A program made the position numbers and the translations under genes. DNA of 64,000 nucleotides. It comes from Bacteroidia bacterium (GTDB lineage: Bacteria; Bacteroidota; Bacteroidia; NS11-12g; UBA9320). The DNA is taken from the NCBI GenBank assembly GCA_020849295.1, contig JADLGN010000012.1:1-64000 (forward strand), read 5' to 3'. The notes below the pieces were generated by a model, which had not been told where the DNA came from, did not search any database, and saw only the letters and a program-made list of their open reading frames with translations. Shown here in pieces: positions 41,213 through 45,246 of the stretch (its first letter is position 1; each line of letters begins with the position of its first letter).

Positions 41213-42155
41213 ATGAACAGACTAATTACAATCTTCACTTTAGTATTTTTAACTTTTTCAGGGTATGCTCAGCCAGATATTGAAAATATTAACTGGTCGT
41301 CTTGGGGAAAAACCAACAGGTATTTTGTAAGCACACAGGCAATCAGCCCCAACCCTGTTCCTCCGGGGAAGGATATAACATGGGATTTCACAAATCTTTC
41401 GGGCCCAGCCAAAGATTCAATTTCCATATTAGACTATGGAGGAAACACTCCATTTAGTTTCGATTTTTCAAAGGCCAATGTAAATTTTGCCAGATACTAC
41501 GCCAGCACGAATGAAACGTATATTTCCCATTATAGAAAAACTCAATTCGATTTTGCCTATATGGGTGATGGCCTTGTTGGAGGTGGGGCCGCCCCGTTTT
41601 CTTATGACCGTAAAATGTTTAAATTTCCCATGGCATTTAACAGTTCTTTTAAAGAGTTTTTATTCTAATAGTGGCAGTGTAGATGGATATGCAATGGTGA
41701 AATACGATGGATATGGAACTCTAAAACTTCCCGGTGGTACGTATAAAAATTTATTTCGAACTTCCTGTAAAGATTCTGTTTCGCCTACCAAAATTACGTA
41801 TAGGTATGAATGGTTTGATATAGACAACCGTTATATGTATATGACCGTATCGGGTACTACAACCACCATTACGTATATATATAACCGGCCTAAAGCTTCC
41901 GGCAGTATTTCTTCTGGTATTTTACAAATGGAACTAAACGTATTTCCTAATCCCGGTTCATGACAGCTTACAGTATCCTTGCCTAATCCCATAAGCAATG
42001 GTTTATTGGAAATAACCAATATGTGCGGACAAGTGGTAATACAAAAAAATATAGATAACTCAATTATGAATTTTGAGCTAATAGATAAGGGAGTCTATTT
42101 GGTTAGCGTTTATTCGGATGGGCAAAAGTTCTTTAAAAAGTTACTAGTAGATTAA
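41213..42155 (+). pseudogene. Broken T9SS type A secreted protein gene
   Basis: The first frame (41213-41668) gives a signal peptide (about 1-19, ending GYAQ) and a beta-rich N-terminus, then stops soon after SSFKEF. Removing one T from the T5 run at 41657-41661 restores the frame, which goes on YSNSGSVDGYAMVKYDGYG and reaches the sorting domain VFPNPGS. There a TGA at 41961-41963 interrupts; beyond it the same frame continues QLTVSLPNP ... GVYLVSVYSDGQKFFKKLLVD to a stop at 42155, which is a complete type A tail. So the gene carries one frameshift and one nonsense codon. The intact protein would have been about 310 residues. Function unknown. Confidence 0.85.
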
Positions 42156-42297: not shown

Positions 42298-42691
42298 ATG
42301 GGCAAATTTCATTTTTTTACAAATCCTGATTTGCTTTTGACACAAATAAGTGATCAATCTTTTGGGGCAAAAAACTCAGTAACTATTGCTGGAGTGCAGT
42401 ATGATGTATTTAATGCAGGCTCTTCACATACGGCTTCAACCAATCCTAAAATTTATGCTCCTTCCGATGGTATTATCTGTTTCCAAGAAGATATTTCTAA
42501 TCCAAATTTATTGAATGCTATTATAAAACCAAAGACAAACAATTACCTTGATTTCTGTGGTGTAAAATTTTTTATATTGAAAGGAATATTAAAAAATAGT
42601 CTTGTACAGTCTTCGGGAATTATTAATCCCGTTGGGACTAATCCTTTTATTGATAGAATTTGGGCCTCACAAAATCTATTTAACAACCAAC
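42298..42691 (+). pseudogene. 5' fragment of a gene split by a transposon
   Basis: About 131 residues are left before the inverted end of the RAYT element begins at 42692. They are rich in Asn and Ile and match no family I recognise (for example NSVTIAGVQYDVFNAGS, GVKFFILKGILKN). The frame runs on into the element and stops at 42774, adding a tail of transposon origin. The other half probably lies at 43518-44525 on the far side. I cannot confirm from sequence alone that both belonged to one gene; strand and frame direction agree. Confidence 0.6.
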
Positions 42692-42784
42692 TTTTCTTCC
42701 CTCCAGCGTCTCCCCACTTGGCACTTCCCAGCCACCGTCTCGCCCTGCGTGGGTTTGAGGGATGGGAGGGCTGACGTGGCGGCT
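42692..42784 (+). repeat. Left inverted repeat of the RAYT element
   Basis: This 93-base arm starts TTTTCTTCCCTCCAGCGTC and ends GGCTGACGTGGCGGCT. It is far more GC-rich than its surroundings. The central 25 bases differ from the right arm and so may be free to drift. Confidence 0.8.
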
Positions 42785-42801
42785 CCCCATTCATAGTCCT
42801 T

Positions 42802-43383
42802 TTACTCGCTAAAATCAATATCTGCCAATGAAAGGTAATTGGTAACAGGATAAATACTTTGCATGCCACAAATATAAAATTTTGCCGAACTATGCTCATA
42901 ATCTTCAGGAGTTGCAGCCAAATTCCATTTGCCTGAACACGGGTTTAAGTGCATATAGTTCAGCTTTTGTTCTATAAACGCATTGCTTCTGCAATCTTTC
43001 CAATCGAAGGATGGTATCCAAACCTTATGCTTCTTATTTCTTAGCTTTTCGTTGGCACTTGCGGATTGTTCCAAAATATCAAGTAGCCGGTTTTCTCCAT
43101 TGGCCTTTAACCCGTTAACTATATCATAAGCCATAAACCGTTTCCCATTACCCACAATGGTATTGATACCCTGGTTGGTTTGTTTAAATGCAATAAGGAT
43201 ATGGATATGATTGGGCATAATAACATAGCCTATTATGTGATGACCTTGGTTGACAATGAAATCAAACCATTTGTAAACAGCACCCCAGGCATTGGCCTTT
43301 TCAATCAATGGCAGCCAACCCAAACAGGTAAATGTTATAAAATAGGTTCCTCCGGTTTCAAAAATGTTTACTTTTACAGGCAT
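42802..43383 (-). CDS. REP-associated tyrosine transposase (Y1_Tnp)
   Basis: A 193-residue transposase with an intact catalytic core. The HUH metal motif is H59-I-H61 (MPNHIHILIAF), and the single catalytic tyrosine is Y143 in the helix FIEQKLNYMHLNP, followed by the RAYT-type tail (EDYEHSSAKFY). The start (MPVKVN) matches the family length. These enzymes cut and rejoin single DNA strands at hairpins. The gene lies between the two inverted repeats, pointing leftward, opposite to the interrupted host gene. Because the reading frame is intact, the element may still be active. Confidence 0.92.
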   Translation of the reverse strand: MPVKVNIFETGGTYFITFTCLGWLPLIEKANAWGAVYKWFDFIVNQGHHIIGYVIMPNHIHILIAFKQTNQGINTIVGNGKRFMAYDIVNGLKANGENRLLDILEQSASANEKLRNKKHKVWIPSFDWKDCRSNAFIEQKLNYMHLNPCSGKWNLAATPEDYEHSSAKFYICGMQSIYPVTNYLSLADIDFSE

Positions 43384-43427
43384 TGAACAAAAATAAAAAT
43401 AATCAGTATAATTGTTTTGTGTTTATT

Positions 43428-43517
43428 AGCCGCCACGTCAGCCCCATTTCTCAAGCCCTTACTTCGCGAGACGGTGGCTGGGAAGTGCCAAGTGGGGAGA
43501 CGCTGGAGGGAAGAAAA
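43428..43517 (-). repeat. Right inverted repeat of the RAYT element
   Basis: The reverse complement of this 90-base arm matches the left arm at both ends. Within the arm, CCACGTC (about 43433) and GACGGTGG (about 43470) can pair with one bulge, so each arm may form its own hairpin. The adjacent frame reads through it as PSGETLEGRK, which is not real protein sequence of the host gene. Confidence 0.8.
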
Positions 43518-44525
43518 ATGAGGAAAGCCGTAGAGGCCGAATTTATTCCTGTATTTCCACAACCAGCCTTGCATGATTTTATAAAAAATGATGGAACTTC
43601 TGCTGAAAATACCAAGCCCGTAATTAGAGATAAAGATGATTCATTTTTAAAACCCACTCATGCGGATTTTAACCCCTTCCCAAGCGTGAGAAGGTTTACA
43701 GAATCGAGTAAAAACTATATTCGCTTTACTGATTTTGGGCTGGATGGAGGAACAAAAAACATATATTTTTACTGTCTTCAGGAAATGTCAGAAAAATTGG
43801 AATACGGCGAAATGAGCGAAATTCTTGGTCCTGTATTCCTTGTTAATACGTTTCCACCAGAAGCTCCCGGAATTCGAAAAATAGAAACCGTTTTAACCGA
43901 CCAATATTTAGAAATCAGTCCGGGGATTAAATTTGAAATTAATCCTTACTTTGATTCAGAGGAAGTAAAGAAAGTTCGCATCTATCGCACTATCGAAAAG
44001 GAATCATCAGAATCTGTTCGTACAATGCAATTGGCAGGAGATTATGATCTAACAACTCCTATAAAGGATGAATTTACGGACTTAACTTTCCCACCCTTTG
44101 GTAAGGATATTTATTATAGGTTGGTGGCCTTACGAAAAATTAAAAATGAGTTTGAAGAATTTGAATATGTACCATCCAAACCTTCAGAAACAAGAATTGC
44201 CAAAGTGGTTGATAATATCAATCCTCCGTCTCCCGAAATATTAGTAAATATTGGGGCAACCCAAGTAATCCCGCCACAGTTACAAAACATTGACCTCTCT
44301 TGGGCAGAGACATGTTATGAAGGAAAATATTCACTTTACAAGATGTCGGATTCTGGATTTTGGCAATTAGTGGAACAATTTAATTTTACAGACACACTAA
44401 TTTACAACTATAGTACCTTGGATAAAGAGGATACTGATGGTGATACCATTTATCACCGGTTTAAAGTAGTGGCTGAAAATGCAAACGGATTATTGAGTTT
44501 GGATGAAAAAATATTGGTTTTATAG
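43518..44525 (+). pseudogene. 3' fragment of a transposon-split gene (FN3-like)
   Basis: The frame is open from 43383, but its first 45 residues come from the RAYT repeat. From 43518 on there are about 335 residues of host protein with no signal peptide. Two beta-sandwich-like segments resemble FN3 domains (APGIRKIETVLTDQYLEISP, about 43860; NIDLSWAETCYEGKYSLYK, about 44290). The family is unknown to me. It ends 11 bases before the first TIR-like gene, so they may once have formed an operon. It could still be translated if a start exists inside, for example the ATG at 43519, but lacks its N-terminus. Confidence 0.6.
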
Positions 44526-44536
44526 TAAAGTAATTT

Positions 44537-44919
44537 ATGCCAAAAGTATTTATCAGTTTCGACTATAACGATATTAATTCAAAAAAAGTTGTAGATAATT
44601 GGATTCATCAAAATATTGGGGCCGATATTTCTTTTTCATCTTTAGAAGGACTTAGCTATAGCTCTAAGGGGGAGGATTTTGTAAAACAAATCCTTAGGGA
44701 CAAAATTAATCAATCACAAGTTGTTCTGGTGCTCGTAGGAGATAACACACACAACAGGCCTTGGGTAGATTATGAAGTACATCATGCAAAAGTCATGGGA
44801 AAAAGGTCATTTGGACGCAATTACCAGGAACAAGAGGAGCCCCACCTAAAGAAGTGGTAAATATTGTGGGCGTTTCATTTGATTTGAATTCAATTCAAAG
44901 AGCAATTCAATCTTACTAA
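44537..44919 (+). pseudogene. TIR-like (DUF1863/MTH538 type) protein gene with frameshift
   Basis: The first frame encodes 107 residues: PKVFISFDYNDINSKK at the start, RDKINQSQVVLVLVG in the middle and RPWVDYEVHHAKVMGK later. These match TIR-like domains of the DUF1863 group, the kind used as ThsB in Thoeris defence. After the A5 run at 44800-44804 the frame turns to nonsense and stops at 44860. One more A restores VIWTQLPGTRGAPPKEV ... VNIVGVSFDLNSIQRAIQSY, ending at 44917-44919. The intact product would be about 127 residues. In the family, the conserved Asp/Trp-Glu region lies in the surviving part. Confidence 0.8.
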
Positions 44920-44952: not shown

Positions 44953-45246
44953 ATGGCCCACAAATGTTTCATATCATTTAAAACCACCGACTTTACCTAC
45001 AAAAGACATATTCTTGAAAATTTGAAAGTTGACCTTGTCGATAAATCTCTTCATGAGGCAATAAATTCGGATGATGAAGATTATATTATGCGTAAAATTC
45101 GTGAGGATTATTTACGGGATAGTACAGTAACAATACACCTAATAGGTTCTCAGAGTTAAGAATTACTCGGTTGGGAAGAGCAAAAATTTATTAGTGTTTT
45201 GAAAGGACTAAATGTTTGCAAATGGTTAGCAAATCCTTCTAAATAA
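44953..45246 (+). pseudogene. Second TIR-like protein gene, nonsense mutation and truncated
   Basis: HKCFISFKTTDFTYKRHI and RDSTVTIHLIGSQS resemble a TIR-like family with a core similar to the preceding gene. A TAA at 45157-45159 interrupts the frame exactly where relatives continue; the same frame then reads ELLGWEEQKFI, a conserved-looking stretch, and runs into unrelated residues up to a stop at 45244-45246, next to the tRNA-Leu terminator. The 3' half is missing. The two genes together look like a dead immune locus rather than a working one. Confidence 0.65.

Follow-up and report, generated by a model that had tools for sequence, protein, structure and literature searches.

REPs, RAYTs and REPtrons

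REPs are among the commonest repeats in bacterial genomes, and how they arose and how they move is unsettled. RAYTs are generally regarded as domesticated, single-copy genes that stay in place, and REPtrons as not transposing in one piece (PMC2817692, PMC6006769). Nunvar et al. (2010) reported RAYTs without multiple copies or changes of chromosomal location (PMC2817692), and Bertels and Rainey (2011) suggested an origin of REPINs in the ends of an ancestral RAYT-type element (PMC3116915). A closely related described system is the E. coli/Stenotrophomonas REPtron, in which the gene of a HuH Y1 enzyme, TnpA-REP, lies between inverted REPs that form bulged or imperfect hairpins with an unpaired conserved foot (PMC8266576).

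The unit described here shares all of these features. It lies in a Bacteroidia genome, within the stretch of 64,000 nucleotides that was analysed (the window), and the REP-RAYT lineage to which it belongs looks like an exception to the sedentary view of RAYTs.

A RAYT gene between two-headed REP arms

The REP-RAYT-REP unit spans positions 42692-43517 (826 bp) in the layout REP+ / RAYT / REP-. Its inverted arms measure 93 bp on the left (42692-42784) and 90 bp on the right (43428-43517), and a repeat search recovered them as a 75-nt inverted pair at 88% and a 17-nt inverted pair at 100%. Compared directly, the arms are identical over 52 nt from the outer end and over 17 nt at the inner end, with a diverged centre. 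This agrees with the original prediction of mirrored arms of about 90 bp with a perfect 52-bp part; its second perfect match, at the inner ends, also holds, at a length of 17 rather than 16 nt. A 52-bp perfect inverted match at a spacing of 0.8 kb is not a product of chance. The arms had also been described as much richer in G+C than the genome, and measured against the window they are (0.645 and 0.600, compared with 0.301), the RAYT gene itself lying at 0.376.

Each arm is a two-headed REP, with an outer head (CTTCCC..GTCTC) followed by a hairpin core, and the termini of the unit read (T)CTTCCC. The left outer head (42692-42723, forward strand), which is identical to its counterpart in the right arm and forms the outer end of the unit, consists of a T-run, then CTTCCCTCCAGCGTCTC and a spacer; the corresponding TTTT-CTTCCCTCCCGAGTCTC is the outer end of REP copies in three related genomes (G003, G005 and G006). 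The left core (42724-42788, forward strand), CTTCCCA GCCAC c GTC TC GCCC ... GGGC t GAC GTGGC GG, has a covarying stem and matches the REP covariance model (R1) with E=2.7e-14. The right core (43424-43485, reverse strand; E=1.3e-13) has the same stem and a different loop, and beyond it the right outer head (43486-43517, reverse strand), identical to that of the left arm, closes the unit, as comparison with the outer ends of REP copies also indicates.

REP design and the hairpin

Comparison of relatives reveals a common REP design, in which an outer head, CTTCCCTCC(C)GAGTCTC, is followed after about 12 nt by a core with the consensus CTTCCCA GCCAA y GTC TC GCCC ... GGGC t GAC TTGGC GG. The stem varies between copies, with GCCAC/GTGGC in the window and in several G003 copies, and GCTGA/TCAGC on contig C9 of G005. 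The foot is CTTCCC in the unit and its related copies, and the GT[AG]G foot of the canonical GTAG REP is absent from them.

Across 14 REP copies, 94.9% of the stem cells are paired, a percentage biased towards the stem since the stem was partly picked from those same sequences; the changes on both sides seen at seven of the 14 pairs are therefore the stronger evidence. None of 500 shuffles and no slid register equalled the real stem. The original prediction that each arm can form its own hairpin is thus upheld by covariation and only weakly by energy: single-strand DNA folding of the two arm cores was no better than that of shuffles (z of -0.6 and 0.0), and the minimum-energy fold of the right core differs from the REP hairpin.

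The RAYT enzyme

The gene between the arms (42802-43383, reverse strand) encodes a RAYT/TnpA-REP-like HuH Y1 transposase of 193 amino acids, as indicated by NCBIfam, Foldseek and an alignment of relatives. Its HuH motif is NHIH (residues 58-61) and its catalytic tyrosine is Tyr 143; H59, H61 and Y143 are invariant in an alignment of 12 sequences, the RAYT and 11 relatives. The NCBIfam model REP_Tyr_transpos (NF047646) scores 68.4 bits (E=6e-19), below its curated cut-off of 80 bits, and the Pfam Y1_Tnp match is sub-threshold (E=0.0026), which together mark a divergent RAYT outside that equivalog. A sequence search of solved structures with the RAYT returned nothing beyond a match to Mediator subunit 23, attributable to chance. 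With a predicted structure (pLDDT 77), the best Foldseek match is 4er8, the E. coli RAYT-REP complex (E=8.2e-7). The gene had been called an intact RAYT, and an uninterrupted 193-codon frame with HuH and tyrosine in place and 4er8 as its closest fold confirms the call.

The next Foldseek matches are the TnpA proteins of ISDra2 and IS608, and with a HuH Y1 enzyme, a T-rich left flank and no target duplication the unit could be read as an ordinary IS200/IS605 element. That reading is extremely improbable, since the closest structure is that of a RAYT and the unit has long inverted REP arms, lacks tnpB and contains a RAYT whose full gene is single-copy in its own genome.

Host genes flanking the unit

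The unit is flanked on the left by the N-terminal 131 codons of gene A (42298-42691, forward strand), homologues of which are intact at 666-668 amino acids in G005 and G007, and on the right by the C-terminal 335 codons of gene D (43518-44525, forward strand), whose G007 homologue exceeds 825 codons at 51% identity. A single host gene split by the unit, as originally proposed, was considered and rejected: the two fragments are the start and the end of different genes. Homology to gene A reaches to about 8 nt from the left arm, and homology to gene D resumes at the first codon past the right arm. Each arm end thus marks an end either of the unit or of a deletion.

Genes A and D probably belong to one cluster. 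The order in G005 is response regulator, A, B, C and a gene in the position of D, and the response regulator of the window is a homologue (61%) of the one in G005. In G007, a contig carrying A and B (C39) and a contig carrying C and D (C14) meet with a 9-nt overlap in an open frame. Apart from a weak N-terminal match, the D homologue of G005 does not align with that of G007, so the A-D order rests mainly on G007. By the layout of these two genomes, about 7.3 kb would be absent at the unit, comprising the rest of A, all of B and C, and the start of D. The N-terminal two thirds of D were absent from the assembly in a search at an expected identity of about 50%; the corresponding search for the missing part of A was less sensitive.

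Two different genes as flanks could also point to an assembly chimera, in which a repeat joined two distant places of a draft genome of 55 contigs, and contigs of the sister genome G003 are indeed broken by repeats. Such an artefact is very unlikely here, given that the arms and the RAYT occur once in the assembly, the missing part of D, expected at about 50% identity, is absent from it, and the homologues of A and D stand in one gene series in G007, where C39 and C14 meet in frame.

The neighbourhood shows several further features. The A-B-C-D cluster is fast-evolving and encodes DUF6603, DUF7379 and patatin-like proteins beside the response regulator (G005:C9, L031 2794-11589; G007, L024/L029). 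Directly downstream of the broken D are two ThsB-like TIR-domain genes (44537-44860 and 44953-45159; Pfam ThsB_TIR, E=1.6e-15 and 2.1e-7), possible defence genes of which the second seems truncated. Between the response regulator and A, a secreted-protein gene seems broken into three overlapping frames (41213-42155). The D homologue on G007:C14 (L024 2445-4780) is interrupted by a gene pair that we take to be an IS21-like istA/istB.

Ends, target sites and probable movement in relatives

All 14 complete left ends of the two-headed form begin at (C/A)TTCC after a T-run, and the four bases preceding them are 84% T against a background of 36.6% (p=4e-13). On G005:C9, a REPtron end adjoins the second, truncated copy of a host gene, the intact copy of which lies 0.7 kb upstream at 91% identity. 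The intact copy reads GCTAAAAATAATTTC where the broken copy reads CTGGGAAGGAAATAATTTC, from which it follows that the T-run, as read from the element, is host sequence. At the same locus (L030 6260-8490), a 0.66-kb direct duplication (91%) flanks the REPtron and spans the end of the 510-codon host gene and the next gene; the REP end is the exact starting point of its downstream copy, after which comes a further partial REP. On G005:C1, a REP unit is inserted within another REP, at the junction of GACTT and TTATTCCC.

The immediate neighbours of the RAYT are non-homologous among G000, G003 and the two loci of G005. The G005:C1 RAYT lies within a 2.16-kb insert that holds REPs, the RAYT, a REP, a 215-codon gene and two more REPs; a search of all seven genomes with the flanking genes showed its flanks to be contiguous in G004 (84/91% at the nucleotide level) and G003 (75/82%). 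This insert exceeds the REPtron by the extra REPs, the 215-residue gene and about 35-40 nt past the REPs. It is best read as the gain of a RAYT island, parallel loss being less likely. The 215-codon gene (L033 4935-5579), enclosed by REP copies, is a possible passenger. The original prediction called for empty sites in relatives, and one exists for this larger RAYT insert, in G004 and G003; for the 826-bp unit's own insertion, no nucleotide-level empty site was found.

REP copies and doublets with RAYT gene ends

On the original prediction, many solo copies of the arm sequence in a genome-wide search would define a REP/MITE family mobilised by this enzyme. Apart from the two arms, the own genome holds no intact copy and a single decayed two-headed relic (C5:200369-200425), bringing its covariance-model count to three. 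The same model finds 21 copies in G003, many of them at contig ends, 14 in G005, four in G004, two in G006 and zero in G001 and G002. Arms found nowhere else, between unrelated flanking genes, had been named as what would speak against a mobile unit; the own genome comes close to that picture, and the relatives alone rescue the interpretation.

RAYT relatives are present in G003 and G005; none was detected at E<=1e-10 in G004 or in G006, which is 77% complete, and zero were found among the plasmids and viral contigs searched. An insert of about 50 nt, bounded by the inverted ends GGCAAT...ATTGCC, interrupts the RAYT frame of G003 (G003:C34, L032 269-319), and the gene there is a pseudogene while many REP copies persist.

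Several REP doublets carry pieces of the RAYT gene. Its 3' end lies just inside the left REP in seven G003 copies and one G006 copy (0 of 200 shuffles), and at G005:C4:9899-10097 the RAYT leader and first six codons are joined to the 3' REP. At least five of the G003 copies form a MITE of about 265 bp; they are 85-93% alike and have unique flanks. In two Bacteroidota outside the genus, comparable forms occur: in Bacteroidetes SZAS-41 (G109), doublets of 250-300 bp lie on several contigs and include up to about 135 bp of RAYT 3' coding sequence, and in Chitinophagaceae Jr-7aug17-132 (G110) a doublet retains the first 18 bp and about 106 bp from the end of that genome's RAYT.

These doublets have both ends in common with the autonomous unit and retain remains of its gene, as MITE or REPIN derivatives do. 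Because they hold the ends of the RAYT gene, their sequences identify them as internal-deletion derivatives of the REP-RAYT-REP unit. Some G005 solo REPs (C2, C1:81972) contain zero detectable RAYT remains, which means that some copies are not evident deletion derivatives. Some of the G109 and G110 doublets lie close to the RAYT and several G109 copies cluster; these may be local duplications, and doublets could have spread partly by recombination or local duplication.

The same observations bear on the possibility that the RAYT is sedentary and domesticated, with small REP doublets alone moving and the gene placed passively at its junction, either through deletion or recombination involving REP copies that lay in A and D, or because a larger segment arrived by horizontal transfer. 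This account agrees with the published view of non-moving RAYTs (PMC2817692, PMC6006769), with one full copy per genome, with the deletion at the site and with a G005:C1 insert that holds more than the REPtron. It is nevertheless rather unlikely: the arm ends match the breaks in host homology on both sides, the neighbours of the RAYT differ in every sister genome, and doublets that hold RAYT ends derive the moving entity from the whole unit.

Proposed mechanism and significance

The unit is probably a REPtron of a Bacteroidota RAYT lineage that behaves, or has recently behaved, as a transposable unit. The mobile form originally suspected is supported by the dispersal of related REPs, the RAYT-derived doublets and the empty site of the sister RAYT insert; from these we infer transposition of the exact 826-bp unit.

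Single-stranded DNA would be the substrate in which the Y1 HuH enzyme recognises the REP hairpin, and the unpaired CTTCCC foot would plausibly act as the guide, in the part that GTAG plays in other REPs. Cleavage would take place at the outer CTTCCC beside the host T-run, transposition may depend on strand and replication, and the unit would land next to T-runs, leaving no clear target duplication. Shorter doublets would then arise by internal deletion, keep the two REP ends together with fragments of the RAYT gene, and spread as MITEs or REPINs. In the own genome, the full unit may have come to stand at the ~7 kb cluster loss through insertion with an adjacent deletion, or through insertion followed by REP-mediated deletion.

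Overall, the evidence favours a lineage whose REP-RAYT-REP unit moved and yielded non-autonomous derivatives. Whether Bacteroidota REPtrons of this type are, more broadly, complete and still mobile single-strand transposons that make REPIN-like MITEs by internal deletion is an evenly balanced question. If they are, 'domesticated' is the wrong description of these RAYTs, and REPINs can be observed as they originate. The findings support descent of common bacterial hairpin repeats from a transposon, and the family offers, for a direct transposition assay, an enzyme, cognate ends, non-autonomous derivatives and a candidate cut site.

Comparison with known systems

Relative to the E. coli/Stenotrophomonas REPtron, the unit differs in its foot (CTTCCC rather than GTAG), in arms of about 90 bp with a second outer head, in its position at a host-gene break and in the existence of RAYT-derived deletion derivatives (PMC8266576).

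Among RAYT classes, subclass 2.6 (Bertels group 5; Quentin et al. 2018, PMC6006769) shares with the unit its occurrence in Bacteroidota, a HuH-to-Tyr spacing of 82, NH[LIV]H, a C-terminal SS and 'atypical' REP structures with copies elsewhere. In place of the subclass motifs WQ and YIH[QN]NP, the RAYT has WI and YMHLNP. Set against the published motifs, these features point to subclass 2.6 as the closest class, without filing the RAYT as a member.

Like REPINs (Bertels and Rainey 2011, PMC3116915), the doublets are REPs in opposite orientation spread in the genome; unlike them, they retain pieces of the RAYT gene. They match the ancestry that was proposed in that work, although an earlier description is possible beyond the open-licence literature. 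TIRYTs (PMC3733652) likewise have a RAYT-like enzyme within long inverted repeats; the unit lacks their GGGG[AT][CG]A[CG] terminus, and its arms are REPs with covarying stems.
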